From: a virus
IMG/VR virus record: IMGVR_UViG_3300008113_000221
Span: 1-60,151 of that record
Length of the DNA: 60,151 bases
Strand: one strand, 5' to 3'
In this document: positions 7,504 through 43,816 of the stretch, one piece after another
How the letters are laid out: every line of letters begins with the position of its first letter
How positions within the stretch are numbered: position 1 is the stretch's first letter
Notes under the pieces: model-generated
What the model saw: only the letters and a program-made list of their open reading frames with translations
Told to the model about the DNA's origin: nothing
Database searches by the model: none
Translations under genes and position numbers: made by a program

Positions 7504-8043
7504 ATGAAGAATCTATTAAAAGCCATGTACCAGTTCGCTGATATGGCCGAACCGATACTAAAAGACGCAGACAATCCTTTCTTTAAATCCAAGTTCGCAG
7601 CACTGGAGCATATCCAGCAGAGCATAAAGGAGCCATTAAAGAAGTGCGGACTTGTCCTTTCCCAGCCATCAGTAGTAATAGACGGAGCGCACTATGTAAA
7701 AAGCATATTGTTCCATGTGGAAAGCGGAGAATATATTGAATCTTACTTCCCAGTGGTAGCCATGAAGGGAACGCCACAAGACTATGGTTCGGCTACCAGT
7801 TACGCCAAGCGTTATGCCCTATCTGGGCTATTAAACCTTACTATTCAAGGAGAGGATGATGATGCAGAAACAGCAGAAGGCAGAGGTAAGTCTGCTCCTC
7901 ATCAAGACCAGAAGGAGTGGCTGAATAAAGGTTCAGAAGCTTTCATGAAGGTAAAGGGATTCTTAGATAAAGGAGGAGACATTAAAGAGGTAGAGAAGAA
8001 GTATAAGATTAGCAAAGAGGTAAGAGACTTATTAAGCAAATAA
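7504..8043 (+). CDS. erf: ERF-family single-strand annealing protein
   Basis: 179 aa. Residues about 1-115 form the ERF fold, with the diagnostic segment GTPQDYGSATSYAKRYAL near residues 89-106 and the preceding beta-rich region. P22 Erf-type proteins form rings on single-stranded DNA ends and promote annealing, giving RecA-independent recombination and genome circularisation. The C-terminal tail after the acidic EDDDAETAEG linker is lysine-rich, as is common in this family. It heads the replication-recombination block, directly after the iteron-like gap; ATG preceded by an A/C-rich leader. Confidence 0.9.
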   Translation: MKNLLKAMYQFADMAEPILKDADNPFFKSKFAALEHIQQSIKEPLKKCGLVLSQPSVVIDGAHYVKSILFHVESGEYIESYFPVVAMKGTPQDYGSATSYAKRYALSGLLNLTIQGEDDDAETAEGRGKSAPHQDQKEWLNKGSEAFMKVKGFLDKGGDIKEVEKKYKISKEVRDLLSK

Positions 8044-8772: not shown

Positions 8773-9208
8773 AGAACTGATGAGTAACGTAAAGATTGAC
8801 AAGATTAAGATGCTGATTAAGAAAGCCGAGGAGTTTCATAGCCTTGCTCTTGAGATAGGGATAGACACTGGACTGATAGAGGCGATAGCTGGTAATAGCG
8901 TAATCATTGAGCCGTACTATATCATTGAGCTTGTTCAAAGAAGGCTTAACGTAGATATAAATACCAACTCAAGGAAGAAAGAAATCGTAGAGGCTAAAAG
9001 GATTATATGCTGGTTACTACAAAAGTATGCAAGGCTAAGTCTAAAGAAGATTATAGTATATGTAAATCTTAAAGACCATAGCACAGCCATACACCATATC
9101 CAGACGCTGAATGACTATCTGGAGCATGATGAATACTTGCAACACCTTATTGCAGGATTTGAAGAAGATATTATAAATTTTTCTAATAAGAAAAGCCAAT
9201 ATCATTGA
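8762..9208 (+). CDS. DnaA domain IV-like replication initiator protein
   Basis: 148 aa. Residues about 75-115 match the DnaA C-terminal DNA-binding domain: a helix AKRIICWLLQKYARLSL, then the signature KDHSTAI at 104-110, which in DnaA reads the DnaA box. There is no AAA+ ATPase domain; the N-terminal 70 residues are helical and unassigned. Stand-alone domain-IV proteins in phages may recruit the replisome to a phage origin or block host DnaA boxes. Stop overlaps the TTG start of the helicase gene (TTGA), so they are coupled. Confidence 0.8.
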   Translation: MSDKELMSNVKIDKIKMLIKKAEEFHSLALEIGIDTGLIEAIAGNSVIIEPYYIIELVQRRLNVDINTNSRKKEIVEAKRIICWLLQKYARLSLKKIIVYVNLKDHSTAIHHIQTLNDYLEHDEYLQHLIAGFEEDIINFSNKKSQYH

Positions 9209-25400: not shown

Positions 25401-28400
25401 AGTTATTACAGGAGTAGTTGTGCCGTTTGCAACAGTTGAACTTATATCCGTTCCCGTTGTACCTATCGTTAAAGCTGCAACACTTGTTACCGTTCCTACA
25501 CTCCATGTCCTATTAGCAGACAAATCATAAGATGTACCGTTAATGGTTAATGTCGTAGTTGCAGAAGCGCCTCCAAGGCCATTAAGTGTATATGTTGGAA
25601 CATTAAGAGTTGAGCCAACTAATGTTGAAGAGCCACTTGCACCTGTTGTAGTTAAACTAAGTGTATTTTGTTTATTGTTAAAAGTTGTCCAATCGGTACT
25701 ACTCAAATAACCATTTGTACTGCCACTTGATTGTGATATTGAGATTGTATTCCCACTAACAGAAATAGGTGCAGTACCAAAATACACACCAGAACCAATC
25801 TGTGAGAATGAAATATATGTTGTTCCTATTGTAATAGGAGTAGAAGCAGGATTACAATGCCATTGGGTATTTGATAAAGTAGAACCACTACTTATACTCA
25901 ATGTCGCTTCAGATAGTTCTGATGATGCATTGGCATCCGCAGACCTTGTAAGTATAAATGGACTTGAGCCATCTCCTGCTTGTGTAACTACATAAATACC
26001 GTTATTAGGGGTTAGTGTACTTGTTTCATTTTTTACTAAAACCCTATTTCCTGCAACCAGTGCAACTCCATCTGTAGTTGCTGAAGGTATTGCACCATTA
26101 ACTGAGCCAGTCAATATTTGACCAGAACCAGTTACCGCATAAGAAGGTAAGGCAGCAACAGTACCTGCATTTGCAGATTGTTTCCAGTCAATACCATTAG
26201 CCAAGTTGTCTACATAATCCTTTGTGGCTGCACCAAGCCCGCTAACAGGGTCTGCATTTAATATTAGATATCCCGTCATTGTATCGCCCGCCTTGTTAAC
26301 AGGAGTGTATCCAAGAACAGTGGGAATAGTTGCACTCTTCCATAGGCTTAATGTAGTATCACGGTAAAGCACACCATTATTTACATAAGGGGCTGGAGCT
26401 ACGTCATGTAATTCTTCAAGCTCATAACCATTATCTATCTTAACGTATATCTTACCGTTATTAGCATGTGCATATTCTACATATCCAATAATAACAGTAT
26501 GCTGAGGTGCTACTGGCTTTATATTTGTAATTGCTCCGGGCGTTGTTGGACTTAGGTAAAGAATAGTTCCATCAACCCAAGTTTCACCCTGAAGGCTACC
26601 TGTTGTATTTATATCTGTAATAGCTCCAATATTCACAATAAACCCTTCCTGATTAGTTGATATGTTTTCACATACTAATCCAAGGGTAGACGCACTATTT
26701 GCGTCATTATTTGCTTGAGCTAAAGAAACAGCAAGTCTTTGTCCTTGCGCTCCTGCCACTTTTACTACCTTATAATCTGCTCTAAGCAAGTTAGTGGCTG
26801 TACTATTTCTTACTCTTGCAATAACACTCTGCCCAATAGGAACACTATACGTATTGCCCTTGACAGACAGGCGAACTGTGCCATCCGTATTATCCCACCA
26901 CATTACTCCTTCAGCAGAAGGAATGTTACTGCTTGATGGATTATATCTAACAAAGTCAGTAATCAAACCATAGGTTCCGAGGTCAACATCTTGTGTTGCG
27001 CCCGTATACGGAACGTATCCTGTTAATGCTGAACCATAGTTAGGTATATTTAATGTATTCCCAATAAGAGTAGATACACCACTTGTCCCTGTTGTAGTTA
27101 ATGTTATTGTACCTTGCTTATTATTAAAAGTATTCCAGTCCGTAGAGCTTAAATATCCGTCTGTTGTAGTCGTAGACTGTGTTATTCCTATAGTTCCGCT
27201 GCCCGTTATCGTACCTCCAGTTATTGGGCCGCTTGTAGCAATACTTGTAACCGTTCCTACAGACCAGCTCCTATTTGCTGATAAATCATAAGAAGTGCCA
27301 TTGATGGTAAGTGTTCTTGACGTAGGAACATATCCAGAAAGGTCTGGAGAGTATATTGGTATGTTTAATGTGTTCCCTATAAACGTAGCAGCCCCACTAC
27401 TTCCTGTAGTAGTTAGAGTTATTGCTCCTTGTTTTGAATTAAAAACAGACCAGTCTGAGCTTGACAGAGCACCTCTGTTTGAAGCAGAAGCTGTTGGTAT
27501 ATTCAGTGTTATTGCTGGAGTAGTAGTAGCGTTTGCTACAGAGCTATTTATATCTGTTCCTGTAGTTCCAGTAGCAAAGCTGACAGACGTAACAGTTCCA
27601 AGAGGATTTGCTGCCCATGACAATATATTACCATCAGTAGTTAAGAACTTCCCAGCATTTCCTGTTTGTGTTGGAAAATTAGATACCCAAGTATATGCGT
27701 CATCCCAGTTGCTCTGCTTAACATTTGTTGGCAAAGAGTATCCAGATGCGAATGATAACGCCAAAGTTCCTGCTCCCGTAACAGGATTTCCGCCTACAGA
27801 AAATCCAGTAGGAACAGACATGTCTACAGAAGTTACTGTGCCAACGCTCCACGACCTATTAGCAGATAGGTCATATGTTGTTCCATTAATAGTTATTGTC
27901 CTTGATGTAGGCACATAGCCAGAAAGGTCTGGAGTATATATAGGAATATTTAATGTTCCTCCAATAAGTGTTGCGGCGCCAGAAGTTCCTGTTGTGGTAA
28001 GCGTTATGGCCGCTTGCTTTGAATTAAAAACGCTCCAGTCTGTAGCGCTTAAATACCCATCGGTAGACGAACTTGCTTGGCTTATTCCTATTGTTCCAGA
28101 GCCAGTTATAGTACCCCCTGTTAAAGGCCCAGATGTAGACACACTTGTTACAGTACCTACACTCCACGACCTATTCGCTGACAAATCATAGGTAGTTCCA
28201 TTTATAGTAAGAGTCCTTGAAGATGGAACAGACCCATTTGTATCCATAATTCTTTCCCACCTACCAGTAGCAACTCCTGTAACTTGCAGATAATCCACTC
28301 CGTCATCAGCCGTAGTGCTTGACGGATTCCACCAGAATACACCTCCGCTATTATCGCCCTCTGAACTTAGTCCAGTAGCATAGAATAGAGTACTTATATT

Positions 28401-28451
28401 CTTATTCTGATTTCTTAAGTCAGTTACAAGAGGTATACTTTGTATTACCAT
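22449..28451 (-). CDS. giant repetitive tail fibre, 2000 aa
   Basis: N-terminal anchor (VIQSIPLVTDLRNQ, then FFWWNPSSTT-type segment) followed by seven modules ending DWTTFNSKQ or DWSVFNSKQ. Each module has the pattern SRTLTINGTSYDLSANRSW, GTVTSVA, GYLSSTDW or GALSSTDW, then NAITLTTTG and TLNIPTY. A non-repetitive middle (about residues 590-760) contains 'GAATKDYVDNL', a common fibre motif. Later segments are beta-helix-like with NVLIGTTTD repeats. No peptidase S74 chaperone at the C-terminus, which ends in NNFPVIS. It trimerises for host attachment; the DNA repeats allow recombination. Confidence 0.9.
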   Translation of the reverse strand: MVIQSIPLVTDLRNQNKNISTLFYATGLSSEGDNSGGVFWWNPSSTTADDGVDYLQVTGVATGRWERIMDTNGSVPSSRTLTINGTTYDLSANRSWSVGTVTSVSTSGPLTGGTITGSGTIGISQASSSTDGYLSATDWSVFNSKQAAITLTTTGTSGAATLIGGTLNIPIYTPDLSGYVPTSRTITINGTTYDLSANRSWSVGTVTSVDMSVPTGFSVGGNPVTGAGTLALSFASGYSLPTNVKQSNWDDAYTWVSNFPTQTGNAGKFLTTDGNILSWAANPLGTVTSVSFATGTTGTDINSSVANATTTPAITLNIPTASASNRGALSSSDWSVFNSKQGAITLTTTGSSGAATFIGNTLNIPIYSPDLSGYVPTSRTLTINGTSYDLSANRSWSVGTVTSIATSGPITGGTITGSGTIGITQSTTTTDGYLSSTDWNTFNNKQGTITLTTTGTSGVSTLIGNTLNIPNYGSALTGYVPYTGATQDVDLGTYGLITDFVRYNPSSSNIPSAEGVMWWDNTDGTVRLSVKGNTYSVPIGQSVIARVRNSTATNLLRADYKVVKVAGAQGQRLAVSLAQANNDANSASTLGLVCENISTNQEGFIVNIGAITDINTTGSLQGETWVDGTILYLSPTTPGAITNIKPVAPQHTVIIGYVEYAHANNGKIYVKIDNGYELEELHDVAPAPYVNNGVLYRDTTLSLWKSATIPTVLGYTPVNKAGDTMTGYLILNADPVSGLGAATKDYVDNLANGIDWKQSANAGTVAALPSYAVTGSGQILTGSVNGAIPSATTDGVALVAGNRVLVKNETSTLTPNNGIYVVTQAGDGSSPFILTRSADANASSELSEATLSISSGSTLSNTQWHCNPASTPITIGTTYISFSQIGSGVYFGTAPISVSGNTISISQSSGSTNGYLSSTDWTTFNNKQNTLSLTTTGASGSSTLVGSTLNVPTYTLNGLGGASATTTLTINGTSYDLSANRTWSVGTVTSVAALTIGTTGTDISSTVANGTTTPVITLNIPTASATNRGALSSTDWTTFNSKQNAITLTTTGASGSSTLVGATLNVPTYTLSGLGGVPTTRTITINGTAQDLSANRTFSVGTVTSVAALTLGTTGTDLSSTVATGTTTPVITLNVPTASATNRGALSSADWTTFNSKQNAITLTTTGTSGAATLVGATLNIPNYVGFANPMTTLGDVIYGVAAGAATRLAGNITTAKQFLSQTGTGTVSAAPSWATIAGSDITGAALTKTDDTNVTLTLGGTAATALLRAASITVGWTGSLAVGRGGTGATTLTGVLIGNATSAVTAVAGTASQLLRRNAGNTAYEFFTPTYISAAITSLNGLTAATQTFAVGTAGTDFAISSATSTHTFNLPTASATNRGALSSADWTTFNSKQNALTNPVTGTGTTNYLPKFTGTSTIGNSNLINDASGNLGLGVTPSAWSTFKVLQVGSLSSLYSSPSTYLGHNIYYNSGNKYIANGYAQLYGLNDSGQYVWYQAPSGTAGNAISFTQAMTLFANGNLAVGTATDAGYKLDVNGTGRFTDNLSIVKSGNALLCVHASTNTTPVVDIEMMRGTNATWGADAYGDYRFRNSAGNLTIDYGDSGVTTTRLTIASTGAATFSSSVTAASANITGNLTVDTNTLFVDAANNRVGFGTVSPTRKVTISEGTGTNTNAYLSFNNSTERWVIGNEGAFASATNDFFFYDTAYRLVIKQGGNVGVGTTSPSAPLHVNTSSDVGIVLSSSAGAYTSYLNLNAAGGGAAVIRAIGGTPFLFEVGGSERMRITSGGNVLIGTTTDNGADRLQISGNGLFQNGRIVINQNSTSSAGLQVNSNDIVTYTGNLIQGTTLVVGSSAFNLIDLSTNGTVRFRVNGLGEGTFSGGVNYNVLKPTTTNTASTATLTPNLASGDTFTITAQAAALSVASPTGTFVNGQKLLIRIKDNGTARAITWTTGSSGAYRASSDLALPTTTILGKTMYLGFIWNSTDSRWDLIAFLNNFPVIS

Positions 28452-29577: not shown

Positions 29578-32500
29578 TTATCTGCCCATCTTCATAGAGC
29601 CTCCGCCCATGCCCCCCATCTTCATTCCGCCTTTCATTCCTCCGCCTTTTGACTTTTTAGGGTACTGCCTGAATTTTTCTTCTTTAATTATACCATACCT
29701 TAGCTTTTCACCTGCCCTTATTATGTCTGCATCTTGGAATCCGCTTATTGCAGACAGTCCATTGGCAAGCCCCATAAAAAGAAAGAATCTTCTTTGTTCG
29801 TCAGAAAGCTGTACATCTTTTTCTGTTATGTTAGACATGTCGCTTCTTTCGTTTTCTTTTCTTACTTTTTTTTCAAACTTAAATGCAGCAGGGGCCTCTC
29901 CATTTGCGGCATACGAAATATCCAACATTGACTTATATCCAGTCTTAAACGGTATGCCATAAGTTCCTAGTATATCATACCATCCATAGTCTGAGTTATT
30001 TCTTGGGTTGAATGGGGGCTGAAATGTAGGCTCTTCTTTTACCCAAGAGAAATAGTCTTTTCCTGTGTCGCTAATGGCATTCCCAGACAATACGTAGGCT
30101 ATCCTATTCATTATATTTATTCCAGACTCTTCTACACTAGGGCCAAAGCCGCCAACAGTTAAGTCTCTTAGCACGTATGTGTACCACTTTTTAAATGAGC
30201 CAGATAGAGAATCGTAAAATTCGTCATCATCCTCTATGTCAAACGCTGATTTAAGAACCTCTTTTATACCATATCTGTATATAGACGAAATCAAGAAAAT
30301 ATTAATTGCTGAATACGCAGCTGTTTCTAGTGTAGTGCCAAATACATCTATAGCTGCTTCTTTTTTTTGCATTGAGTTTCCGTACAACATTTTAGACGTA
30401 TCCTCCATTAGCCTAGCTTTCGTATTAGAGCTAAAATTATTAAATGGAAGAATTATATTCTTTATAAGCTCCGCCCACGATGAGCCGTTCTCATTTCTTT
30501 TGAACTCAGACTGCAATACCCTAGTGCTTACGGCCTGTGTTTTGTCAATAGACTGCTGGGCATAAGATAAAGCCATCTCTCTTTCTTCGTTCATTCTAGT
30601 ATGCTCAGTCTTTAAGTCTTCTGCCGTAGTAGGTATTTTGGCAACCTCATTCATATACTGCAAGTAATACGAAGCAAATGTCTTCTTTGCTGCATATACG
30701 TCAGCTGTTGTAAGTGCGTATAAGGATAAAGACCTTATATTCGCTGCTACGTCTCCAACATCTGAAACGACCTTTTTTATCCCTCTCTTTGTCTTTCCGT
30801 ATGAAAGAACCTCTGACTCCTCTGCCCTTCCTGCTGCTCCCATTTCTATACCCCTAGAGCCAACTGGAGCAAGATTAAAAAGCTCTAAGTTAGTAGGCAC
30901 ATTAGATGTCATTACCATTGACATATACTTTGGATTTCTTACAGACGCAAGTATAAGAGGAGTTGTTTGAGATATTATCTGCGTTGGCCTTCCAAGAGCA
31001 ATAGCTGAACCCAAGTCTTTTAATATCCTTGTTGCTGCTAGTGCTACGGAATTAAAAGTCCCATCAGCATTCTTTCTACCGTATCTCATCGTTTCATACT
31101 GCTTCTTAAAAGACTCTGTAAAGAAGTCTGAATTCGCTTGTCCTCCAAATGCCTCAGACATTCCATCAGTATTCTGAGACATGTATTGAAACACTTTTGC
31201 GGAAAGATGCGACTTAGAAGTAAACAGCTGCTCTTGTAGCGTCTTAAATGAGTTAAACTCAAATCTATAGTCAACTGCCTTATTCTTTGGTAGATTGTCA
31301 ACAAGTTTTCTTTCTTTGCTTCTTCCAGTTTCTTTTGGCTTTAGCGTATTATTATTAAATACAGTATCAAATGGGTCAAAATCTTGAGCATCTGTTCCAA
31401 CCTTTTTGTATCTTCTTGGATGATATTGTGGCCTGTTTTCATACTCAAATGTCTCATTCAGGTCTTCTTCTGCATGTGTCTTAAAATCATCTTCGTAAAC
31501 CTTCCACACATTTTTGTTCATCCATTCAGCAGCCTTTACCTCTAGTGGGTGCAGATTAGAGTATCCATTTTTAAAGTCTTCAAGCGTATTAAAGTCTTTT
31601 ACGGAAGACTGGTATATACCATCAAGAAGCTCTCCAATATAATTATCTTCAACATCAGAGCTTTTCTTGTATACTTCTATAGACTTTCTTAGCTGCTCTT
31701 TATTGTTCCTGTAGTCAGAATCTTCTGAGCCAAGCCTTACGTTTGCCAAGTCAGCAAATACACCTATTGTTATATCTGTTTCAGCAGAGTTATGAATTAT
31801 TGGAGTATCGTAATAGAACTTAGAAAACCCTCCTATTAAAAATCTTTTTACTGCGCTGGTAGCCTGCTGCAATCTTGTTACGTTTTCTGCCGCAAGAACT
31901 ATGGCGTATGCGTTATTTACATTTGAGTTAGAGTCGTTTATAACAGAGTTGTCAACTATTCTAATTAGCTCTGCAAGCTGCTTGCTATCTGATATTGACG
32001 CTGGGTCTACTCCAGATATTCTTTTCAGCTTATCAAATAGCTTCTTTTGTTTCGCTGATGCATTAGCGGCAGGAACTGTTCTTGCCAGCTTTTCTTTAAG
32101 TCCAAGTAGGCTATATCCAGCAACTCTTTCTAGGTTATATCTAAGAGCCTTTCTCTTTGCATCGCTAAGAGAATTTAGATATGAGTCCATGTCTTCTGAT
32201 GACATAAACTCGTCTATTGCATTAGCTTCTTCTTCATTTATTCCAAGAACCCCATAGGCATCTTCTACGTCAGATATAACAGATTGCTTTACAGATTTTT
32301 CTATAGGAGCAAATAATTTCTCGGCATTTTTTACATCAAATGCCTGATAATTTGGCGATGTTACTGGAAGCTTAGACGCTGCATACGTAGCAGCAATCCT
32401 GTTAAATTCCGATAGTTCTTTTTGAGATAGATATTCAAGCGGAATATTCTTCATCCTCTTAACTAAGTCAGCAGCCTCCGCAAATGGTTTTACAAGTTTT

Positions 32501-33198
32501 GCTTGCAAAGACTTTCCTGTTCTCAAGTCAGCATCATAATTAGCATTAGCTACAATCTTCTCAAAGTAGTCTGTAAACCTTTTCAAATCCCTTTCGCTAC
32601 TGCCTATATTTGACGCCTTTCTTATAATAGACTCTACCTGCTTTCTAGACAATACGCCTCTTAGCTTATCTGACGTTTTTAGAAAGTCTCCAACCTTTTT
32701 GCTAAACGCTTTCTGAAAAGCAGTTTGCTCTTTTACGCCCTCCTTTCTTCCGGCCTTCTTTCCTTCTATCTCTGCTGCAAGCTTTGCTTCCGCTTGTTTA
32801 AACGCCGACTCGTATTCAAGTTCTTTTATACGCTCTTCGTACTCCGCTTTTGTTATCTTGTTATTGGCAAGCTGGTCTTCAAGAGCTCTTATCTTAGGAG
32901 CCATATCTCTACCTTGCCTCATCTGCCCAGCCAAAAACGCTTCTTTTCTTGCTTCGTCAGCTCCTTGCTTAAACGCCTTTGTTGCCAACCTTACAGTTTC
33001 GTTTAACTGCTTTTTGCCCTGTTTAGATAATAGCTGAACCGCTTCATCGACAGTAGGTATACTACCATCTCCTTTAATCAAAAAAGATACATGCGCAATG
33101 GCATCTATATCCTTTGGAGATTTTCCAGACAACCTTTCAGCCAATCCAGACGTGAGCTCTTTCCAATTATCAGACTTCTTGTTTGGGCAAATAGACAT
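29578..33198 (-). CDS. large internal virion (cargo/ejection) protein, 1206 aa
   Basis: N-terminal cysteine-bearing start (SICPNKKSDNWKELTSGLAERL), a long lysine/glutamate-rich coiled coil (about 120-190), helical domains, and a conserved-looking segment AIALGRPTQIISQTTPLIL (about 735-755). A single hydrophobic stretch SAINIFLISSIYRYG lies near 960, and the C-terminus ends in glycine-methionine repeats (GGMKMGGMGGG). Layout and position between tail hub and fibres suggest an internal core protein ejected with DNA, possibly forming a channel. No enzyme motif seen. 4 nt after a mini-gene. Confidence 0.7.
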   Translation of the reverse strand: MSICPNKKSDNWKELTSGLAERLSGKSPKDIDAIAHVSFLIKGDGSIPTVDEAVQLLSKQGKKQLNETVRLATKAFKQGADEARKEAFLAGQMRQGRDMAPKIRALEDQLANNKITKAEYEERIKELEYESAFKQAEAKLAAEIEGKKAGRKEGVKEQTAFQKAFSKKVGDFLKTSDKLRGVLSRKQVESIIRKASNIGSSERDLKRFTDYFEKIVANANYDADLRTGKSLQAKLVKPFAEAADLVKRMKNIPLEYLSQKELSEFNRIAATYAASKLPVTSPNYQAFDVKNAEKLFAPIEKSVKQSVISDVEDAYGVLGINEEEANAIDEFMSSEDMDSYLNSLSDAKRKALRYNLERVAGYSLLGLKEKLARTVPAANASAKQKKLFDKLKRISGVDPASISDSKQLAELIRIVDNSVINDSNSNVNNAYAIVLAAENVTRLQQATSAVKRFLIGGFSKFYYDTPIIHNSAETDITIGVFADLANVRLGSEDSDYRNNKEQLRKSIEVYKKSSDVEDNYIGELLDGIYQSSVKDFNTLEDFKNGYSNLHPLEVKAAEWMNKNVWKVYEDDFKTHAEEDLNETFEYENRPQYHPRRYKKVGTDAQDFDPFDTVFNNNTLKPKETGRSKERKLVDNLPKNKAVDYRFEFNSFKTLQEQLFTSKSHLSAKVFQYMSQNTDGMSEAFGGQANSDFFTESFKKQYETMRYGRKNADGTFNSVALAATRILKDLGSAIALGRPTQIISQTTPLILASVRNPKYMSMVMTSNVPTNLELFNLAPVGSRGIEMGAAGRAEESEVLSYGKTKRGIKKVVSDVGDVAANIRSLSLYALTTADVYAAKKTFASYYLQYMNEVAKIPTTAEDLKTEHTRMNEEREMALSYAQQSIDKTQAVSTRVLQSEFKRNENGSSWAELIKNIILPFNNFSSNTKARLMEDTSKMLYGNSMQKKEAAIDVFGTTLETAAYSAINIFLISSIYRYGIKEVLKSAFDIEDDDEFYDSLSGSFKKWYTYVLRDLTVGGFGPSVEESGINIMNRIAYVLSGNAISDTGKDYFSWVKEEPTFQPPFNPRNNSDYGWYDILGTYGIPFKTGYKSMLDISYAANGEAPAAFKFEKKVRKENERSDMSNITEKDVQLSDEQRRFFLFMGLANGLSAISGFQDADIIRAGEKLRYGIIKEEKFRQYPKKSKGGGMKGGMKMGGMGGGSMKMGR

Positions 33199-33395: not shown

Positions 33396-36300
33396 TTATT
33401 TGCAAAACTTCCTAGCAACGAACTGCTCCCTTGTTTCTGTGTACCCGAACTCACTGGCTCTTTCTCTTTGGTATTGCTCTTCAAACTTTGGGTTTGTGAA
33501 CTCTCCGTTGACAAACTCTGGAAGCTCTTCTGCCTCTTGCTCTGTAACTTGTTCAAAGATGGGTTGCTCAAATACTTTAGCAGTTCCTGCTTGTTGGGCT
33601 CGCTCATACTCGGAATAGACTCCTGCAAGATTAGCAATGATTTTGATTTCATTTTCTTTTAATTTATTTTCAGTTTTAGCAAGTGCTGATAACGCTTGCT
33701 CTCTTGTCATAGCCTCTGATTCAAACATTCCACCTGCGGATGTCTCAGATGCTGCATTGTATTTTCTTACAAAGTCCTTAAACTTCATAGGCCCTTCTGC
33801 AATCATTCTATTCATTACGATAACATCTGGGTTATGAGGCTTACCTAACTGCGTCTGACCAATATAATTCCAAAAATCATCTAGCTTGTAGCCCCTCGAC
33901 ACCATATCAGACTGAAGTAATATGGCATCGTTAATCAGTTTCTCAAGACTATAGTTTTCGTTCTTATAGTTTGTCGTAAGTAAAGGTAACGCACTTATGA
34001 TATTTTTTCTAAATGTTTTTACATTATCTGTAGACTTCATTACCTCTGGACTAACTACAGTAGCTAACAATATGTCGTTAATCAAATCTTTTCCAGATTC
34101 CGTAAGTTGATTATCTTGAGAAACATACTCACTTCTTTCTTGCTGAGTAATTATCCCGTTAGCCTCAAGTAAATTTATAAGCGCAGTTCTATCTTGTTTG
34201 CTATCAAACAGCTCGCCCATTGTATTGTATCCAGATATTATATTTAAAATGCCATCCTTTAGGCGCTGATTATTTGATATGATAGCAGCTCTTTTTATTG
34301 CCGTATCAGTAGGGCTTTCTCCTTTCTGAGCCTTCTGGTTATATGCGTCAAGTTCTTTTACAGAATACTCTTTTACGGAGTTGTCTATTTTTACGAGAAC
34401 TGGATTCTTCATACCTCTTACAGCAGCAGGGTCTATGCCAAACTTTGCAGCTCTATCCTCAAGCCTTTTCTTATATTCCGCATATTTTTCTGGAGCTATA
34501 TCCTTAGATAGCTTAATCGCCATTGTTCTTCCGTTTCCAGAAAGAACTATGCCATCAAGGCTTATGATAGGAACTCCTGTATCTGGAGTTGCTGAATCAG
34601 AAATAACAATAGAAGGCTTTAAGTTTCTTGCATCCCTGTTTACCTTTTCTTTTGCTACAGTATCTCCTTTATAGTTCCTTGGATTTACATTCATCCCATT
34701 CTGACTAGGGTATCCTTTTGTATCATTGAATGAAGTCTCATTGTGAGATGCAAGTATGTCATCCATTTCGACTACAGCAAATGCCGCATCTCTGGTTTCT
34801 CCATTAGGCATCTCAATGGTAGTATCCTCTCCAAGTATTATGCCTTTATTCTGAAATCCTTTATTAGCTTCTCCGACTTTAACAGTCTTACCATCAGCAG
34901 GAGCAAGAAGACCTGTTCCGGTCTCCATTGTTGGTTTTACTTCTATGTCGGCCTCTACTACCGCTTGTCCTGCAACTGGTTGAGCTGTCTCCGAAGGCTT
35001 AACTAACGGACTTATAATTTTATCGTACTTATTATAAATTTCATCAAACTTTGCCCTATCTTCCTCGTTAGTTATTTTGCTCCTATCAACAACTCCATCA
35101 ACCTTGTATTGCTCAATATTAGGAATAGCGGCAAGTAGTTCTTTTTGCTCTGCTGCTCTTAGTCTTTCTATTTCATTAACTGGTTCTACAGAAGTCTGTT
35201 CTGATTCTTTTAGTTTTAAATCCGATAAATCTAATGTTATGGTTCCTCTAGAACTATTATTTACGGCAGTCTGTTCTGAAATTTCTTCTGAAATAGCAAT
35301 ATCTTGTTCTTTTATAAATTTAGGGTCATTTTCTGATTTATAAAGTGTTCTATTTTCATTTCTGCCAAAAACAATTAGTCTTGCATTTTTCTCAATTTCC
35401 TCTTTTGTTCTTTTTGGTATTTCTACAGTAGCTTGTGGTGTACCCTTTCTGCTTGTTCCCAATTCTACAACCATATATTCTTTTCCATCCGCATCCGTAA
35501 CTATGCTGCCTACTTTGATTTCTGCGACAACAGGAACTTGTTCAGTAATGATAGGCGCTGCTTCAACGGCAACTTCTGCAACTTGTCCAGATTCGAGCTC
35601 TTGCTTGATTGGTTCGTTTGATTCAACGAAGTCTTCAAATTGTTGTCTTGTTTCATTATTTTCGTTTATTTTCTTTAAGATTATTTGGTACGCTACATCA
35701 TCAGCTGTAGAACCTCTAAAAGTTCTTTTCTTGCCATCCTCTGTCTCTAGGTTTACTGAAACAATATTACCATTAGCGTCTCTGTTAATTGCTGCCAATG
35801 GGTCTGTAAACAAGTTTACAAACTCTGTTCCTCTTACAACTATATTTCCGCTATCTGCAACAGATACAGCAGACTCCTGCTTTTCTATTCCAAGGTCAGA
35901 TATTTTAGAGTCTCCTATCTCGTCTACATTACCTATTTCTACAATCCTATTTTTGCTAGGTATATCAGCGACTACAGTCTGGCCTTCAACTCTTAGTGTA
36001 GCCTTATCACCGTTATATAGAACAGGCATATCTAACATCTCTGATACTGTAATAGCGTCTTTCTCATCTTGCTCAAGTTGCTTATCATCATTTCTTACAG
36101 ACTCTATATCGTATCTTGTTTTGCTAATTTCTTCTGGCTCTGCATCTCCTATCTGCTTAAAGAACTTTCCATCTGCTTCAAAGTAGCTAGTTTCAACACC
36201 AGATACTTCTCCTCTTATCTCGTCATTAAGAGATGCTCTTTTTTCCTCTAATGCTTTTATTTCAGATTCTGCATCAGCGGCAACAGATTCGTCTAATTTG

Positions 36301-37739
36301 GATAGCTGCTCTTTTTTTGCGGCAATCTCTTCGTCAACCTTATCCCTTTGCTCTACGATAGGAATAACCTTTTCTTGAACTTCTGGAGGAGTTAGCGGAG
36401 GAAGCTTTTGCTTTATCCTTGCATAGTTTTCTAGAGTAAACATCGTAGCATCTCTATCTTCTTGAGAATAGTTATTCGCATCGAATGTCGCCTCTAATTC
36501 ACTTCTTATGTTGGCAAAGTCTTCATCTGTCTTTGCATTTGCAACGTCTTTTAATACACTTGTATTTACGTTTTTACTAAACGTTGCTATAGTGCCCATG
36601 GGGGCTCCGTATATTCCGCCAGCTAACGTAGCTGTTAAAATATTTTTGCCTATGTTGTCGTATATTTCTTTTTCGTTAAATACTTCTTGCCCTTGAATCT
36701 TATTTGTAAGTATCTTAGCGCCTTCATTAAGAGTTGTCTGTATTCCTTCTGTAATACCTTCAATAGCTGATGAATAAGCGACTTTAAGTCCTTTTGATTT
36801 TGCTGTAGAAGCAAGCGCTCTAACTTCTGTTTCTATAATCTTCTCTATCCCTTTTGTTGATATTGGAGTTGTAGACTTTGATATTTTCTTAAAAGTATCT
36901 GATATTACTTTTTTTTGTATGTTCTTGAACGCAGGCCCAGTTCCAAATATTTTATCAAATCCAAGTTTTTCTAAGTAAGAGTTTATTACACCAACGGTAT
37001 TCCCATACACTTCTCTGGCTAAAGGATTTTCTTTAATCTCTCCTTTTTCAACCATTTTATCATACTCTCTAACCCCCTCTCCATATCCTTGAAAATAGTA
37101 TGAAGACATTCCTGTAACAAGAGCTAAAGGTATATCAGATAACATTCTTGCTCCAGAAGCTGTTAGGGCTTTTGCATTTTCAATAAAACCCTTATTTTTA
37201 AAATCTATTCTTGATATTTCTTGCTGCTCTACAGGAGTAGCGTAATCTGACTTTATCTTTCCAAATGCTGACTCTATTTTACGAGTTCTTTCTTTTTTAA
37301 TAGCAGCTTCTGTTTTTGGCCTTTCTACCTGCTCTCTTACTACATCAGAAACCGTTTTCTGTGGGCCTGTTAAAGGCTGAATATATGAGAATGGGTCTTG
37401 AGGAACCCTTTCTGGTATGCCAGTAGCAAAAGATTCAAATCCTGTTACAAAATTATTCCAAGTTGTAGAAAGGAACTTTTCCGCTTCGCTCCTATCTTTT
37501 TGTACGCTTTTCTGATACTTTGGTTGTTTAGGAATTTCTCCTATAACCAATGAGTTAAAGTTCTCTGGCGTTCTATTAAATCCTTCTACTTTGTCTTTAA
37601 GAGCTTGGTACGCCCTTCCTCTGTAGGCAGAATCAGACATCATAAGATTCCTAAATTCTTCTGGACTCCTATTAAATCCGTCTACCTTTTCAGTTAGCGT
37701 TTGATATACTTTGGATATATAATCGTTCTCGTTTGCCAT
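33396..37739 (-). CDS. polyvalent cargo protein with DdrB-like ParB-superfamily domain, 1447 aa
   Basis: N-terminus has a duplicated motif (EKVDGFNRSPEEF and DKVEGFNRTPENF, within residues 1-65) typical of Bacteroidota phage virion proteins. A long coiled coil lies near 466-515, then an acidic beta-rich middle. Residues about 960-1330 match the DdrB-like ParB-superfamily domain (TIEMPNGETRDAAFAVVEMD, then NPRNY, VLSGNGRTMAIKL, NNQRLKDGILN). In polyvalent proteins such domains protect or process incoming DNA. It ends FVARKFCK. Neighbours are internal-core genes, so it is probably packaged and ejected. Confidence 0.8.
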   Translation of the reverse strand: MANENDYISKVYQTLTEKVDGFNRSPEEFRNLMMSDSAYRGRAYQALKDKVEGFNRTPENFNSLVIGEIPKQPKYQKSVQKDRSEAEKFLSTTWNNFVTGFESFATGIPERVPQDPFSYIQPLTGPQKTVSDVVREQVERPKTEAAIKKERTRKIESAFGKIKSDYATPVEQQEISRIDFKNKGFIENAKALTASGARMLSDIPLALVTGMSSYYFQGYGEGVREYDKMVEKGEIKENPLAREVYGNTVGVINSYLEKLGFDKIFGTGPAFKNIQKKVISDTFKKISKSTTPISTKGIEKIIETEVRALASTAKSKGLKVAYSSAIEGITEGIQTTLNEGAKILTNKIQGQEVFNEKEIYDNIGKNILTATLAGGIYGAPMGTIATFSKNVNTSVLKDVANAKTDEDFANIRSELEATFDANNYSQEDRDATMFTLENYARIKQKLPPLTPPEVQEKVIPIVEQRDKVDEEIAAKKEQLSKLDESVAADAESEIKALEEKRASLNDEIRGEVSGVETSYFEADGKFFKQIGDAEPEEISKTRYDIESVRNDDKQLEQDEKDAITVSEMLDMPVLYNGDKATLRVEGQTVVADIPSKNRIVEIGNVDEIGDSKISDLGIEKQESAVSVADSGNIVVRGTEFVNLFTDPLAAINRDANGNIVSVNLETEDGKKRTFRGSTADDVAYQIILKKINENNETRQQFEDFVESNEPIKQELESGQVAEVAVEAAPIITEQVPVVAEIKVGSIVTDADGKEYMVVELGTSRKGTPQATVEIPKRTKEEIEKNARLIVFGRNENRTLYKSENDPKFIKEQDIAISEEISEQTAVNNSSRGTITLDLSDLKLKESEQTSVEPVNEIERLRAAEQKELLAAIPNIEQYKVDGVVDRSKITNEEDRAKFDEIYNKYDKIISPLVKPSETAQPVAGQAVVEADIEVKPTMETGTGLLAPADGKTVKVGEANKGFQNKGIILGEDTTIEMPNGETRDAAFAVVEMDDILASHNETSFNDTKGYPSQNGMNVNPRNYKGDTVAKEKVNRDARNLKPSIVISDSATPDTGVPIISLDGIVLSGNGRTMAIKLSKDIAPEKYAEYKKRLEDRAAKFGIDPAAVRGMKNPVLVKIDNSVKEYSVKELDAYNQKAQKGESPTDTAIKRAAIISNNQRLKDGILNIISGYNTMGELFDSKQDRTALINLLEANGIITQQERSEYVSQDNQLTESGKDLINDILLATVVSPEVMKSTDNVKTFRKNIISALPLLTTNYKNENYSLEKLINDAILLQSDMVSRGYKLDDFWNYIGQTQLGKPHNPDVIVMNRMIAEGPMKFKDFVRKYNAASETSAGGMFESEAMTREQALSALAKTENKLKENEIKIIANLAGVYSEYERAQQAGTAKVFEQPIFEQVTEQEAEELPEFVNGEFTNPKFEEQYQRERASEFGYTETREQFVARKFCK

Positions 37740-37747
37740 AAATTTAA

Positions 37748-39367
37748 TTATAGGTCTCTCTCTGCTGCATCTCCAGTAACTGATGGCGCCATGTATACCC
37801 CAATAGCCTGCCTTGTTTCCTTAGCGCTTCGCTGTGGTGGAGCTATGTATGCATCGGCAAAATTCCTAGATTTTCTCCCATTAACATTTAGGTATATGTT
37901 TATTGGATTCTTTGCTGCGTCAGTTGTTCTTAAAATCATAACCCTTCCAGACCTTAAAGCTTCTGGAGTTATATCACTATCAAGGAATCCTCTATTTTTA
38001 TTTGCCTCATTTATAGCAACAGACAATTCATAAAGCTGCTGTTTGCCTTGTTCTGTGTTTGGATTTTTGACAGAGAACTTTCTAGATATAGTTTTATCTA
38101 TATCTTTTGATGCTAGTTCGCTTCCAATATTATACCCCTCTTTATTCTTGTGCACTTCTAATGCGGTGAATGGGTACATCTTATCAGCAGCGCCTATGCT
38201 ATTAAACTGATTAGATGTCTCTCTCATTGCAGATACGCCCATCTCTCCAACTCTTGATGCGTTTTCAAATAATGGAGATATTTTTACTGGCCCTCCCCCA
38301 AATCTTTTATCTAAGGCCTGCTCTCTCCTTTGCTCTGCTGCAATTTGGTCTGATATTCTTTCTTGCCTTAAAACTTGTCTACGAGTTACGGGGTCTTCTA
38401 TGAAATCTTCTTCAAATGAAGGATTTGCGTATTTTGAAATAAACTGTTTAGCAGCAAGGTAGTTTATAAACTTAGCTTTAGGTGGTAAGTTTTTAGCAAA
38501 TATATCTTCTGGCAAATTTGGAAGCTTAAACTTAGACTGCTTTTCTTGATACAGTTTTAAAAAATTATTTATCGTATTATTATAGTCTCCAGTTTCAACA
38601 GCTTTATCAAACTCTTGTTTTGTAAACTTATTTATTTCTCTTGGAGAAATAGTCTGTTCTAGAGATTGTCTAATTGCGCCTGCTGTTACATCAATATCTG
38701 GCAAAAGATTCTTATACTTAAATACTTTAGATACGCCTTCTCCTGAAGGGTATGCCTCGTCTGGTATATTGGGGCTATATTTAGATACCGCATCTATTGT
38801 TTGCGGAACCGATTGATAAAACTTTCTTCCATCAACATCTTTTCTTCTGTATTCGGCCATGTTATCAAGGTTATTCGCCCTTATTTCGTCAATAGACTTG
38901 CTCATTACATTATTTTTCCATCTAATGTCAGCGCCTTCATCCCAATCATCAATATTTTTGGGGTCTACTATATTTTGGTATGTATCCCTTTCTGTTTTAG
39001 AAAACTCTTTACTGGCTTGAATGGTAGTAAGCATTTTACTATATAGTGCATTTGCCTCACTTTTTAGCTGACCATACTTTTCTGGATTCTTAGTAATGAG
39101 TGAAGGATTAGAAGACAGTTGCTTTTCTATTGAAGACCACTTATTGTAGCTATCAGTAACCCTGCCTATATCAGCTTCTCTTATTCCAGCTCTTTGCTTA
39201 TTGATGTCAGCAAGTTCAGTATAATACCTTTTCTCTGCCTCTATTCTCCTAGCTCTATCTTCTGCTGCAATACGCTGATTAGCAGCACTCAATGTGTTGT
39301 ATATGGGAGACAGGTCTTGAGCGCCAAACGCCCTTTGTATCATTCTTTCTGAAATGCCTAATGCCAT
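37748..39367 (-). CDS. internal virion / cargo protein, 539 aa
   Basis: Mostly helical with an N-terminal basic region (SERMIQRAFGAQDLSPIYNTL), coiled segments rich in E/R/K/Q, and a C-terminal beta segment (VMILRTTDAAKNPINIYLN). No membrane helix or enzyme motif. It lies between the 224-aa and 1447-aa cargo genes, 8 nt from the latter. Likely part of the ejected core by position and composition. Confidence 0.65.
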   Translation of the reverse strand: MALGISERMIQRAFGAQDLSPIYNTLSAANQRIAAEDRARRIEAEKRYYTELADINKQRAGIREADIGRVTDSYNKWSSIEKQLSSNPSLITKNPEKYGQLKSEANALYSKMLTTIQASKEFSKTERDTYQNIVDPKNIDDWDEGADIRWKNNVMSKSIDEIRANNLDNMAEYRRKDVDGRKFYQSVPQTIDAVSKYSPNIPDEAYPSGEGVSKVFKYKNLLPDIDVTAGAIRQSLEQTISPREINKFTKQEFDKAVETGDYNNTINNFLKLYQEKQSKFKLPNLPEDIFAKNLPPKAKFINYLAAKQFISKYANPSFEEDFIEDPVTRRQVLRQERISDQIAAEQRREQALDKRFGGGPVKISPLFENASRVGEMGVSAMRETSNQFNSIGAADKMYPFTALEVHKNKEGYNIGSELASKDIDKTISRKFSVKNPNTEQGKQQLYELSVAINEANKNRGFLDSDITPEALRSGRVMILRTTDAAKNPINIYLNVNGRKSRNFADAYIAPPQRSAKETRQAIGVYMAPSVTGDAAERDL

Positions 39368-39404: not shown

Positions 39405-40079
39405 TTAAAAACCTTCATTCAAAAACCTAGCATCCATTCCTGCGTCAGCAGCTGATAAAGCTGAAGCGCTAGGGCTAGATATTTTTGGCAAGGAAGTTTT
39501 TCCTTTCTTTCTAGAAAAATCTATTTCAGCACCACTGCCACCAGAAGTAGCAAGTCCAGCTCCAGCTCCAGTTGCAGCAGCAAGTCCTTGGCTAACCATA
39601 GCTCTCTTTGCAGCAAGTCTTTCAAGTGCCATGTTTGCTTTAAGGCCAGCCTTCTCTCTTCTTGATTCAAGAGCTCTCGCTCTTTCTTGCGTCATCATCT
39701 GCCTTTGCCCCTGTAATCTTTGTCTTGCGCCTAGTTTAAATTCAGCAGCCTTAGTGCCTAAGTCAAGAAGCCCTCTTCTTTGCTGTTCAGCAAGAACGCC
39801 AACAGATTGAAGTCCACCCTTTCTTGTTTGAGCAGAACGAAGTGCCGCTGATGTAGCAAGTCCAAGTTGCTCTTGCGCTCTTCCCATTCCGGGCATAGGA
39901 ACATTGACATCCTCTTTAGCGGCTTGATAAGCCTCTTTAGCAAACGGAGATTCTGTATAGTCTTCAATACCTTCGATTGCAGCCTCTGCTCTCTTTCTTG
40001 CCTTTCTTTGACCAATCATTCCTCCTATTGCTTGAACAGCGCCTATGCCTGCTTGAATTGCCGCTAATGGAATTGCCAT
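39405..40079 (-). CDS. internal virion / tail-core protein, 224 aa
   Basis: Begins with an apolar alanine/glycine helix (AAIQAGIGAVQAIGGMIGQ), then long arginine/glutamine-rich coils (ARQRLQGQRQMMTQERARAL), an alanine-glycine stretch (GLAAATGAGAGLATSG) and a disordered tail. This pattern is similar to T7 gp14-like internal core proteins that insert in the outer membrane at ejection. First of the cargo block, 11 nt after the 1241-aa gene. Confidence 0.65.
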   Translation of the reverse strand: MAIPLAAIQAGIGAVQAIGGMIGQRKARKRAEAAIEGIEDYTESPFAKEAYQAAKEDVNVPMPGMGRAQEQLGLATSAALRSAQTRKGGLQSVGVLAEQQRRGLLDLGTKAAEFKLGARQRLQGQRQMMTQERARALESRREKAGLKANMALERLAAKRAMVSQGLAAATGAGAGLATSGGSGAEIDFSRKKGKTSLPKISSPSASALSAADAGMDARFLNEGF

Positions 40080-40090
40080 AATATTTTATT

Positions 40091-43000
40091 TTATCCGTTT
40101 CGTTGACTTATTGTAAAGTTCATATATAATCCTGACAAATATACAAAATTAGTGCTAGTATTGGACAGTTTGAGCTGCAACCATGACCCTTTAAGGTAAT
40201 TGCCATCTATAACACCGCCTATGCTATTGCCATCTCTCATGAAGGCTGCATGGTAAAATCCTTCATTCAATTCATAATCACTAGCCACAAGGTTGCTAAC
40301 TTGCCCTAAAGACGTAGTAACATCTGAGCTTCCAGCAGAAGCCCATAATGCGCTTGAGTCCTGCGTTATTGCGTTAAAGTCTTTCTTCAGCATATTCTGC
40401 ATATTGAAAGATACGCTTATTTCGCTTGGATATGCTACTCCGTAGAACGTATTTCTTGTAGCTGAATCATGCAGATATAAGCCTCCATTCTTCCAGCTAA
40501 CAACAGTATTCTCTACGCACCCAAGCCACTCTGGCTCATAGCTATAGAACGATGAATATGCGTTTCTTTTTTCATTAAATCCTATAGTATACGGGGTAAG
40601 TGTAACAGCGCCCTTAGTTCCAGACTGGAATACGCTAATAAACTCTTCTTCAAAAGAGTCGTAAGTTCCAAGAACTCTGGCAAATCCGCCACCGCTTCTT
40701 AGATACGTCTGGTCGATATACTTATTTGCTATCTCTGGGAAGAAGTACTGTCCTTTATAAATCTCACTTATTGGAGTAACTCCATCGTTAGCAAGCCTTA
40801 TATGGTATCCCCTTATTGGGTCTACGAAATAGTCGGCAGCGGCAGAAGACGCAAGAGAGCAATACTGATTGCCTATTCCATATTCCCCTTGATAGTAGTT
40901 AATCTTATTGATTATATTTATTGAGCCTATAAGGTTAGTGCTACCATCTTGGTTTGATAGTTCTGTAGCGTAAATCCTAACAACACCTTGTCCTCTATTT
41001 TGAAATACTCTAAGTATGCTCTCACGAACCTTAAACCTCTGTATATCTCCCTTGCTCCTATCGTACTCATCATAGTTTATAGGGAAGAATCTGTTAGTCT
41101 GATTAATCAGCGTTCCCTGCTGATATGTTCCACCATATCTTACAAGAGTTGAATTGTATAATTCTCTTGCAAATGGGTCTATAACAAACGGCCTTCCGTT
41201 TCCAGCTACAGACGAAGGGAATAGGTCAGATGCAGCTTTATTTACAAGATACATTGGATTCGGAAGAGCAGGGCTATTTACGGGGAACATCCTAAATCTT
41301 GTGTATACGTCTCCTCTGCTAAACCCAAATACTGCTCCCTGCGGCATCAACGCTGTAATAGAAGCATCTGCTATATTATCTGTATATGTCGTAGTGGTAT
41401 TATCATTTATTGTTGTCAGTAAATAATAATCTGCTCCATTAGCTTTTGTCCTAAACACCTTCCTTGCTGTAGTTCCAGCAGGGCCTGTCGGGATAGACGT
41501 AAGATTAATTTGTTGGCTACCAGAAACTGTTGTTACGTTAGCGCTCTTTGGACTAGGATTAGATTGGCCAGCAGGGGCAACATATTCCACTTTGTAAGAA
41601 TATACCCCAATACTAAGATTTCCTGCCGATGCGACAAGTGTTGCCGTAGGAGCTGTAGAAGGAGCAGGCACAGCAGATGTAGTTCCGGCAATTTGATTTA
41701 CAGTTTTTGACGTATGGTATCTTGTTGGCAATCCAGCATCTCCAACTTGATAAGTTTCCCCAAACTCATAGAACGACTGAGCATTTAGCTCTGTTCCTGT
41801 GGCTGGAGTGTAAACTTCGCAATAATAATTATCTGTTGTACCAAAATTAGAAATAGCTGTCGAATATGGTATTTTTATATATATCCCAGTAAATGCAGTT
41901 GCCACTATAGTAGGGTCTGTTACAACATCTACAATAGGAAAATCAACAGTCGATACAATTCCTCCTCCGTATGGTATAAATGGCCCTATAATCCTAATTC
42001 TATCTCCTCTATTAAAGTCATATGCCTCATAATTATTTTCGTTGGTCTGCAAATTTGTTATCTGCAAGTATCCATAGTCTGAGTCTTTTTCTGTAGTAGA
42101 GCTAACGAATGTAGTAAACGATGCAGCAGTAAGATTTAATGACCTACCCCAAGTAAAATACTTTGCGTTTACTGGAGGCTGATGATTTATAAGAAAAGAT
42201 ATGTTTGGTATCTTCATCTGTGTTCCACCAGTAGTATCCATCTCTGGAGTTGAAATAAGCATTGAGTCAACAGTCTTTGCTCCATCAGTTACACCAAACT
42301 CATCAAAATACATCAATACAAATCTGTATTTAGATTTATGCTTATAGCATGATATTGATACGTCATCTATTGAAGAAGGCGCAGAGGCATAAGATATTGA
42401 AGAAATCCCATCAAATACGTTATACTGAACGGGGTCTCCTGCGTCTGGGTCTCTAGGGTATACATATACTCTACTAAATAAAGTATAATTAAACGGGTCT
42501 GTCTGGTCTAGATAATAGTTTGTAGTTATCTGTGCGGCAAAATATGCGGCTACGGTTGACCTTGTATCTCCAGCCCCAACAGTATAACTATATGTAAGGC
42601 TCGCAACAACGTATGGAGGCGTAGGCTTATCTACTACAACCTGTATGGTAACTACATCTCCTACTTGAGGAGTTCCGTATATGTCAAATGCCCATCCGTA
42701 AGTATCAATCTCTGCTGATACTATAGTCATTGGCGCAGTAGAATTATTTGTAATAAGAGATACGGATGATGAAACATCTAGATTCGCATCCATATTAATG
42801 CCTTCCGTTATTCCACCATATAATAGAACATTGCCATTTAGCAGCTCTTGTGCATTAGCCTTTTTTGGCACATAGTCAAAAAGAAGCAAATCCTCTTCTT
42901 GGTCTATGTAGTCATAAGAGCTATCGTTTAAAAAGAAGAATGTCTGATTGCTATTATTAGATGCATTGCCCTTTTGTATCGTAGCAATAGATAGCGTTGC

Positions 43001-43816
43001 TGAAAATGTATTATCAATAGTATGCCTTGCAGCAAGCTCAACAGCTATGCAGTCAGCATCTCCATTATTGTATATTACAGATATTTTATTGCTCTTTGTG
43101 GGGTCTGTGTCATTTGCAATACTGTCAACGCTTGAAGGAGCAAATAACTTACTCCAAGGGCTCCACGTAGATTTAGTATTATCCCTATAAATCCACCTGT
43201 ACCTAAACTGATACAATGTGTTTTTAAGGTTATTTATTGTGATAGCAGCATCATCAAGATACGAGCAAATAGGAGCTATTAAAGGCATCTTCCTTGCCAC
43301 GTACAAATACTGCGTCTGCCACTGCGTTCCAGAAGAATAAAGGAGGTTAGACAGCGCATCTTTTACATTCAGATAGCATGGCCTATTAGTCCTGTCTGTC
43401 CAATACAGCGTATCTCCTTCATCTTGGTCTTTGTAAATAATATTTACAGAAGCTATTGGATATGCAGGGTCAAAAGTAAAAATATCATAAGCACTATTAG
43501 TAAAGCTTACAAGAACAGGAGTTATTGTCTTGGCAATAGTGTCATAATAGTATATTCCATTTCTTCCATTACTATTGTAGTTGAAATAGTATAATCTATT
43601 TTTTACATTATCGTACAAGTGTCCAATACACCTATTTGTTCCTGCTGGAAGAGAGTTAGAAATAAGCCTATTGCCATAAATATTCTCAACAAGATTATCT
43701 CCTTGAGGGCCTCTAAACCTTACGTTCAGTGCATTTCTATGATGCGATTCTGGCAATACATCATTACCATCATCTAAGTTCATTACCCCTGAAAACCTCT
43801 TTTCGTTTACTGGCAT
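40091..43816 (-). CDS. tail nozzle/stabilisation (muzzle-like) protein, 1241 aa
   Basis: N-terminus KRFSGVMNLDDGNDVLPESHHRNALN is characteristic of large Bacteroidota podovirus tail proteins ('g.MNlDda..vLP.g.yrdA.N'), often annotated as stabilisation, tubular B or muzzle protein. The body is beta-rich throughout, consistent with propeller and immunoglobulin-like domains; a TYTDNIADASITALMPQG region near 820 is a fibronectin-like insertion. It should form the lower part of the short tail. Three ring-protein genes precede it with 1-10-nt gaps. Confidence 0.75.
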   Translation of the reverse strand: MPVNEKRFSGVMNLDDGNDVLPESHHRNALNVRFRGPQGDNLVENIYGNRLISNSLPAGTNRCIGHLYDNVKNRLYYFNYNSNGRNGIYYYDTIAKTITPVLVSFTNSAYDIFTFDPAYPIASVNIIYKDQDEGDTLYWTDRTNRPCYLNVKDALSNLLYSSGTQWQTQYLYVARKMPLIAPICSYLDDAAITINNLKNTLYQFRYRWIYRDNTKSTWSPWSKLFAPSSVDSIANDTDPTKSNKISVIYNNGDADCIAVELAARHTIDNTFSATLSIATIQKGNASNNSNQTFFFLNDSSYDYIDQEEDLLLFDYVPKKANAQELLNGNVLLYGGITEGINMDANLDVSSSVSLITNNSTAPMTIVSAEIDTYGWAFDIYGTPQVGDVVTIQVVVDKPTPPYVVASLTYSYTVGAGDTRSTVAAYFAAQITTNYYLDQTDPFNYTLFSRVYVYPRDPDAGDPVQYNVFDGISSISYASAPSSIDDVSISCYKHKSKYRFVLMYFDEFGVTDGAKTVDSMLISTPEMDTTGGTQMKIPNISFLINHQPPVNAKYFTWGRSLNLTAASFTTFVSSTTEKDSDYGYLQITNLQTNENNYEAYDFNRGDRIRIIGPFIPYGGGIVSTVDFPIVDVVTDPTIVATAFTGIYIKIPYSTAISNFGTTDNYYCEVYTPATGTELNAQSFYEFGETYQVGDAGLPTRYHTSKTVNQIAGTTSAVPAPSTAPTATLVASAGNLSIGVYSYKVEYVAPAGQSNPSPKSANVTTVSGSQQINLTSIPTGPAGTTARKVFRTKANGADYYLLTTINDNTTTTYTDNIADASITALMPQGAVFGFSRGDVYTRFRMFPVNSPALPNPMYLVNKAASDLFPSSVAGNGRPFVIDPFARELYNSTLVRYGGTYQQGTLINQTNRFFPINYDEYDRSKGDIQRFKVRESILRVFQNRGQGVVRIYATELSNQDGSTNLIGSINIINKINYYQGEYGIGNQYCSLASSAAADYFVDPIRGYHIRLANDGVTPISEIYKGQYFFPEIANKYIDQTYLRSGGGFARVLGTYDSFEEEFISVFQSGTKGAVTLTPYTIGFNEKRNAYSSFYSYEPEWLGCVENTVVSWKNGGLYLHDSATRNTFYGVAYPSEISVSFNMQNMLKKDFNAITQDSSALWASAGSSDVTTSLGQVSNLVASDYELNEGFYHAAFMRDGNSIGGVIDGNYLKGSWLQLKLSNTSTNFVYLSGLYMNFTISQRNG

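Follow-up and report, generated by a model that had tools for sequence, protein, structure and literature searches.

The window analysed in this study, a virus record of 60151 bases, holds an uninterrupted open reading frame on its minus strand that encodes a protein of 1447 aa at exactly 33396-37739, as the sequence-only reading had given it. The genes of this region follow the order portal, scaffold-like, major capsid-like, small tail genes, nozzle-like, 224 aa, 539 aa, 1447 aa and 1206 aa; downstream of the 1206-aa gene there are smaller genes and then a 2000-aa fibre-like protein. The 1447-aa gene is flanked by the nozzle-like and 224/539-aa genes on one side and by the 1206-aa gene on the other, which is the order of flavobacterial podoviruses and bears out its proposed position in an ejection block. 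The window portal is also nearest to the portals of flavobacterial podoviruses (24-28% identity).

The following three neighbours, all on the minus strand, precede the 1447-aa gene: a tail nozzle-like virion protein (40091..43816; PHROG 14478, E 1e-48), for which size and position suggest the name nozzle; a 224-aa protein with a hydrophobic N-terminus (39405..40079), which has a weak Parafilimonas prophage homologue (E 8e-4); and a 539-aa protein (37748..39367), which relatives have at the same position. The latter two matched no database family and were assigned to the ejection slot by position alone. A BLAST match between the 539-aa protein and P1 DdrB (E 5e-5 in a 12-protein set) perhaps reflects composition, and a comparison with the 611-aa protein of the phage locus L017 gave no homology. 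The virus is podovirus-like and its host is probably a member of the Bacteroidota, since a relative of the middle module described below occurs in Parafilimonas terrae and a window gene (9205-11061) encodes a 618-aa protein with a BT4734-like N domain, a name that comes from a Bacteroides protein, and a DnaB/AAA-type C-terminal part. Elsewhere in the window, an ERF recombination protein is encoded at 7504-8043. The 2000-aa fibre-like protein (22449-28451) is rich in internal repeats of the type TLTINGTSYDLSANRSWSVGTVTSV that are nearly identical to one another; several of them match one stretch near the start of the fibre of the relative L002.

The claim that the 1447-aa protein carries a DdrB-like domain of the ParB superfamily had been staked on a DdrB/ParB profile match, and it survived that search. 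Pfam ddrB-ParB (PF18763) matched residues 979-1117 (34389..34805, minus strand) with an E of 1.9e-21 and 76.9 bits against a curated cut-off of 27.6. It was the sole accepted Pfam domain and the only effector domain recognised in this protein; PHROG 5143 also matched (E 3e-23). Both motifs named earlier were present, NPRNY at 1019-1023 and VLSGNGRTMAIKL at 1065-1077. In an alignment of 63 sequences, comprising the window and viral contigs, S998, R1021, V1065, the SGNGRT signature (1067-1072; 34524..34541, minus strand) and Y1089 were invariant, and the position of N1022 was occupied by D in 86% and by N in 13% of the sequences. The window domain therefore possesses the pocket arginine, the GNGR signature, the D/N after strand 2 and the family tyrosine; the equation of R1021, N1022, S1067-T1072 and Y1089 with the residues named in the relevant passages of Iyer et al. 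2017 (PMC5512222) is our own assignment.

Moreover, the conserved DdrB unit exceeds the domain defined by Pfam. It spans about 410 residues (949-1361), including a helical extension of 240 residues (1118-1361; 33657..34388, minus strand) that is aligned throughout the 63 sequences and in which N1134 (98%) and Q1295 (95%) are conserved. BLAST matches of the DdrB region to other phages likewise continue past the Pfam domain. In L017, where a 2483-aa protein occupies the same slot in another phage, the extension is shared and identity reaches 41% over 415 aa (window residues 951-1359), with no detectable likeness to the 1447-aa protein outside the DdrB unit. In the AlphaFold model of the unit (mean pLDDT 84.5), a mixed alpha/beta part gives way to a long helical part, the latter mostly at pLDDT 87-96 with dips to about 70. 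The best matches of this model in a viral structure library included named DdrB-like proteins, and ParB/sulfiredoxin entries of that library were matched weakly (E 0.3-2.6). Purifying selection was evident in most segments of the 1447-aa protein for which it could be estimated. In the ParB domain, dN/dS was 0.04-0.10 with dS estimable for all three pairs, and in the helical extension it was 0.02 for the pair L002-L015, dS being saturated in both window pairs.

Upstream of the DdrB unit, the middle part of the protein had been described as acidic and as possibly holding a further domain. A net charge of -52 over residues 401-1000 agrees with the first description, and the second was borne out by residues 545-720 (35580..36107, minus strand), a shared module of mostly strands with a confident core at about 560-680 (pLDDT about 70-90). 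No Pfam, PHROG or NCBIfam family covers residues ~545-720, and comparison of the module model with solved structures found nothing. The module recurs at 26-44% identity in the giant proteins of the phage loci L097-L102, L112, L115 and L117-L119, and it is 45% identical over 224 aa to a prophage giant of Parafilimonas terrae (Bacteroidota). Its carriers are always giant proteins in the same gene slot. The DdrB profile detected nothing in the middle-module giants of the other phages or of the Parafilimonas prophage. Instead, L097 matched RadC, SNF2-type and LPD38 domains, and L098 matched LPD23, together with an ART-PolyVal match below its cut-off. An HExxH motif was found in L097, L098, L115, L117 and L120; it is absent from the 1447-aa and 1206-aa window proteins, which thus have no such peptidase motif to release the cassette. 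The Parafilimonas gene itself (L120:5334-12707) encodes a prophage-like giant of 2457 aa with the header, the middle module and an HEALH peptidase-like motif, and is preceded by genes of 288 and 542 aa.

The remaining segments, all on the minus strand, were less uniform. Residues 71-450 (36390..37529) are rich in helix and glycine and are partly aligned with L097 and L098; a weak case may be made for membrane association, and residues 367-385 are mildly hydrophobic (Kyte-Doolittle 1.24 over 19 residues). A urease gamma match at 295-367 was dismissed as chance (Pfam E 5e-4, below cut-off; NCBIfam 15 bits vs 82). The coiled coil of the sequence-only reading corresponds to residues 451-515 (36195..36389), which are charged and by composition probably helical, and the model predicts a helix at about 535-560. 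Structure prediction of the middle was confident for about 560-680 and 855-915 only. The latter (34995..35177; pLDDT 88-95) is a short helical module common to elemo structural protein gp18, to which it is 46.6% identical over 58 aa (E 6e-5 in the phage collection). Residues 741-850 (35190..35519) are absent from L002 and L015 and were modelled with low confidence. Adjacent to them, residues 630-740 (35520..35852) show low divergence from both relatives: dS at ~630-740 was 0.44 vs 1.1-2.8 in most estimable segments, and fourfold-site identity was 0.81-1.0 from residue 661 on, vs ~0.4 in most of the rest. This pattern carries the mark of a recent recombination next to the 741-850 insertion. The last 85 residues of the protein are likewise little diverged from L002 and L015.

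At the N-terminus, the proposed duplication was confirmed by shuffling. Residues 7-36 and 39-68 aligned with a score of 85, whereas 2000 shuffles scored 17 on average and never more than 40. This header (residues 7-66; 37542..37721, minus strand) is built of two units of ~28 aa, and similar headers stand on the giants of other phages. A like duplication was found at the start of the giants of L015, L017, L097, L098, L102, L119 and the Manatee Spring phage, its score being reached by 0 of 500 shuffles; it was weaker in L115, and the shuffle test did not detect it in L112, L118 or elemo gp18. Furthermore, a header profile built from twelve sequences recovered the held-out L027, L028, L119 and L120 and gave clear matches solely at the starts of giant ORFs among 14187 translated frames, all of the loci having been retrieved through DdrB, the middle module or neighbours of either. 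A header consensus probe matched 7 records of the phage collection, all of them Cellulophaga or Bacteroides phages, and the Cellulophaga header ORFs are annotated as structural by similarity to phi8:3. In Cellulophaga phi46:3 and phi19:3 (L105:26119-26427 and L106:5983-6291), the header is encoded by a short ORF of its own, immediately upstream of the giant ORF. This ORF shifts frame at a nine-A run from which the reading frame of the giant continues, either by programmed slippage or through a homopolymer sequencing error.

The header can also be replaced while the surrounding genes are kept. L015 and L002 share 89% identity in the nozzle and 88% in the 231-aa protein, yet their headers differ (18%). 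The window and L002, in turn, have headers of a similar type (57-58%), with 38-45% identity in the nozzle and 33% in the 224-aa protein. These values indicate that the header varies independently of the nozzle and the 224/231-aa neighbours. It is conceivable, though we hold the idea tentatively, that the duplicated motif serves the giants of Bacteroidota phages in general as an exchangeable header for packaging and ejection, which would route any cassette into the virion and out via the tail; by the same reading, it might play in phages the part that ArdC-N has been proposed to play as a header in conjugation.

The 1206-aa neighbour (29578..33198, minus strand) was found by profile to be homologous to the C-terminal half of the giants of L100 and L102. 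The match amounted to 95 bits (E 8e-30) and aligned residues 163-1019 with 1552-2418 of the giants, more than 850 residues in all; it was obtained with the HMMER bias filter off, the default filter having hidden it. In the same L100 and L102 chains, residues 1078-1214 correspond to the middle module of the 1447-aa protein. Since the neighbour thus matches the C-terminal half of module-bearing giants, the polyvalent ejection protein of the window seems to be split into two genes. The simplest account would be that both parts are encoded by one gene in some phages and by two in others, whether through splitting or through fusion. A candidate homology between the 1206-aa protein and the C-terminal half of the L017 protein was rejected, as no likeness was found. 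The 1206-aa protein lacks about 50 residues that are present in L001/L014, L002 and L015, which may represent an in-frame deletion or an assembly error; in L001/L014, otherwise identical to the window over the genes compared, the homologue has 1256 aa.

Comparison of the slot among phages revealed repeated exchange of its contents. Giants of 3694 and 3859 aa occupy it in elemo and in a Manatee Spring phage, respectively, and in Cellulophaga phi46:3 the short header ORF is followed there by a 1439-aa ORF. In L017, DdrB occupies the same slot in a protein that is otherwise unrelated, and in Piluca it lies inside an epsilon15 gp16-like protein with a transglycosylase domain. The shuffling of domains that characterizes polyvalent proteins is therefore seen among the relatives as module swaps. 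The Flavobacterium paper contains no virion mass spectrometry of the elemo phages.

Taken together, these data support the earlier interpretation in its four parts, namely the DdrB-like domain, the duplicated N-terminus, the ejection-block position and an extra middle domain. We consider it probable that the 1447-aa protein is a modular polyvalent protein that is carried in the virion and injected, with DdrB as its present cassette; packaging and injection are suggested by its position and by its relatives. A polyvalent ejection protein would be encoded in two pieces, its front half by the 1447-aa gene and its back half by the 1206-aa gene. The duplicated header may serve as a portable tag that directs the protein into the virion beside the portal and tail. 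On infection, the protein would be threaded N-terminus first through the tail, ahead of the DNA and with the 224-, 539- and 1206-aa proteins, by analogy with the model for phicrAss001 (PMC10172136). As judged by comparison, the header and common middle module are followed by an exchangeable cassette, which here is a complete DdrB unit of ParB-like pocket and helical extension; its counterparts elsewhere are modules of peptidase-like, RadC/helicase or ADP-ribosyltransferase type. Once inside the host cytoplasm, the DdrB unit, if it behaves like its superfamily, would bind nucleotide and act on DNA, either to protect or process the phage genome as it enters or to damage the DNA of the host or of a rival. 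That it targets DNA or nucleotides is suggested by analogy with the proteins treated in the passages of Iyer et al. 2017 (PMC5512222) used here; we found no literature report of a tested biochemical activity for any DdrB-family member.

Because the role of P1 DdrB may lie in assembly, the activity of the unit is left divided among a DNA-directed effector, a clamp and an assembly adaptor. As an adaptor, the DdrB unit would load other cargo into the head and would have no task in the infected cell. We regard this as unlikely, even though the only role assigned to P1 DdrB is helping the addition of DarB to the capsid (PMC9024508), the P1 Dar proteins enter the particle in sequence (PMC12810830) and P1 can do without ddrB (PMC10695390). 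Among the subset of window genes scanned, none was recognised as coding for a DarB-like protein; moreover, proteins of very different make-up have received the unit as a cassette, and its nucleotide-pocket residues are invariant. ParB is a CTP-gated clamp. A clamp variant of the last step, to which we give no greater weight than to the adaptor, would have the DdrB unit, rather than being a nuclease, spread on and shield the incoming genome as an NTP-gated DNA clamp, its helical extension being used as ParB uses its middle domain. In favour of such a clamp, members of the family consistently have a helical domain of 240 residues behind the ParB-like pocket; however, the model of the DdrB unit matched no solved structure, ParB clamps included, the extension has no sequence match to ParB, and no DNA-binding motif was identified. 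A third reading, in which the DdrB unit is a passive relic in a structural ejection protein of the ordinary sort, is very improbable, for although giant ejection proteins tolerate domain turnover and most relatives recovered via the middle module lack DdrB in this slot, dN/dS is low in the ParB domain and, for the pair L002-L015, in the extension, and every DdrB signature residue is intact.

Polyvalent proteins are already recognised as injected multi-tools, and the present case bears on how a phage may mark them for packaging and delivery. The new parts are the exchangeable header and the middle module: between close relatives the short duplicated header is replaced and the body is kept, and the cargo behind the common module varies from phage to phage. 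If the header is an address label, the particles of Bacteroidota phages would carry a delivery code that can be recognised, and a scan for that code could reveal injected effectors. In addition, the conserved extension provides a better-defined unit for biochemical tests of the DdrB family.

Among known systems, phicrAss001 stores the large cargo proteins gp45-gp50 in the head and in the tail by the muzzle/nozzle, from which, in the authors' model, they leave N-terminus first (PMC10172136). The window protein is large like them and would share their storage near the nozzle and their ejection; unlike it, the three largest phicrAss001 cargo proteins are RNA polymerase-associated (PMC10172136). 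Proteins of the epsilon15 gp16 type, as in Alcaligenes phage Piluca and Acinetobacter phage TPWB-05, also place a DdrB unit in a podovirus tail/ejection-block protein, but they have a transglycosylase partner, neither header nor middle module, and proteobacterial hosts. P1 DdrB, detected in virions by 39 peptides (PMC9024508), shares the ddrB-ParB domain, SGNGR and the conserved R, D/N and Y. It differs in that the domain lies at the N-terminus of a 995-aa protein without header or middle module and, according to the passages of Iyer et al. 2017 used here (PMC5512222), is accompanied by a C-terminal metallopeptidase domain; moreover, P1 is a myovirus with DarA/DarB, unlike the podovirus-like virus of the window. 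Polyvalent proteins, as described in the same passages (PMC5512222), combine DdrB, RadC, helicase, ADP-ribosyltransferase and LPD domains interchangeably and are thought to be packaged and injected. Neither this duplicated header nor the middle module nor the DdrB extension of 240 residues is mentioned in these passages, and, in contrast to the proteins they describe, the window chain seems to be split into two genes. The zincin-like metallopeptidase that is a frequent but non-obligatory hub of polyvalent proteins has no HExxH counterpart in the window proteins. The multidomain make-up and interchangeable domain order of the polyvalent proteins (PMC5512222, same passages) are those observed among the relatives of the window protein.
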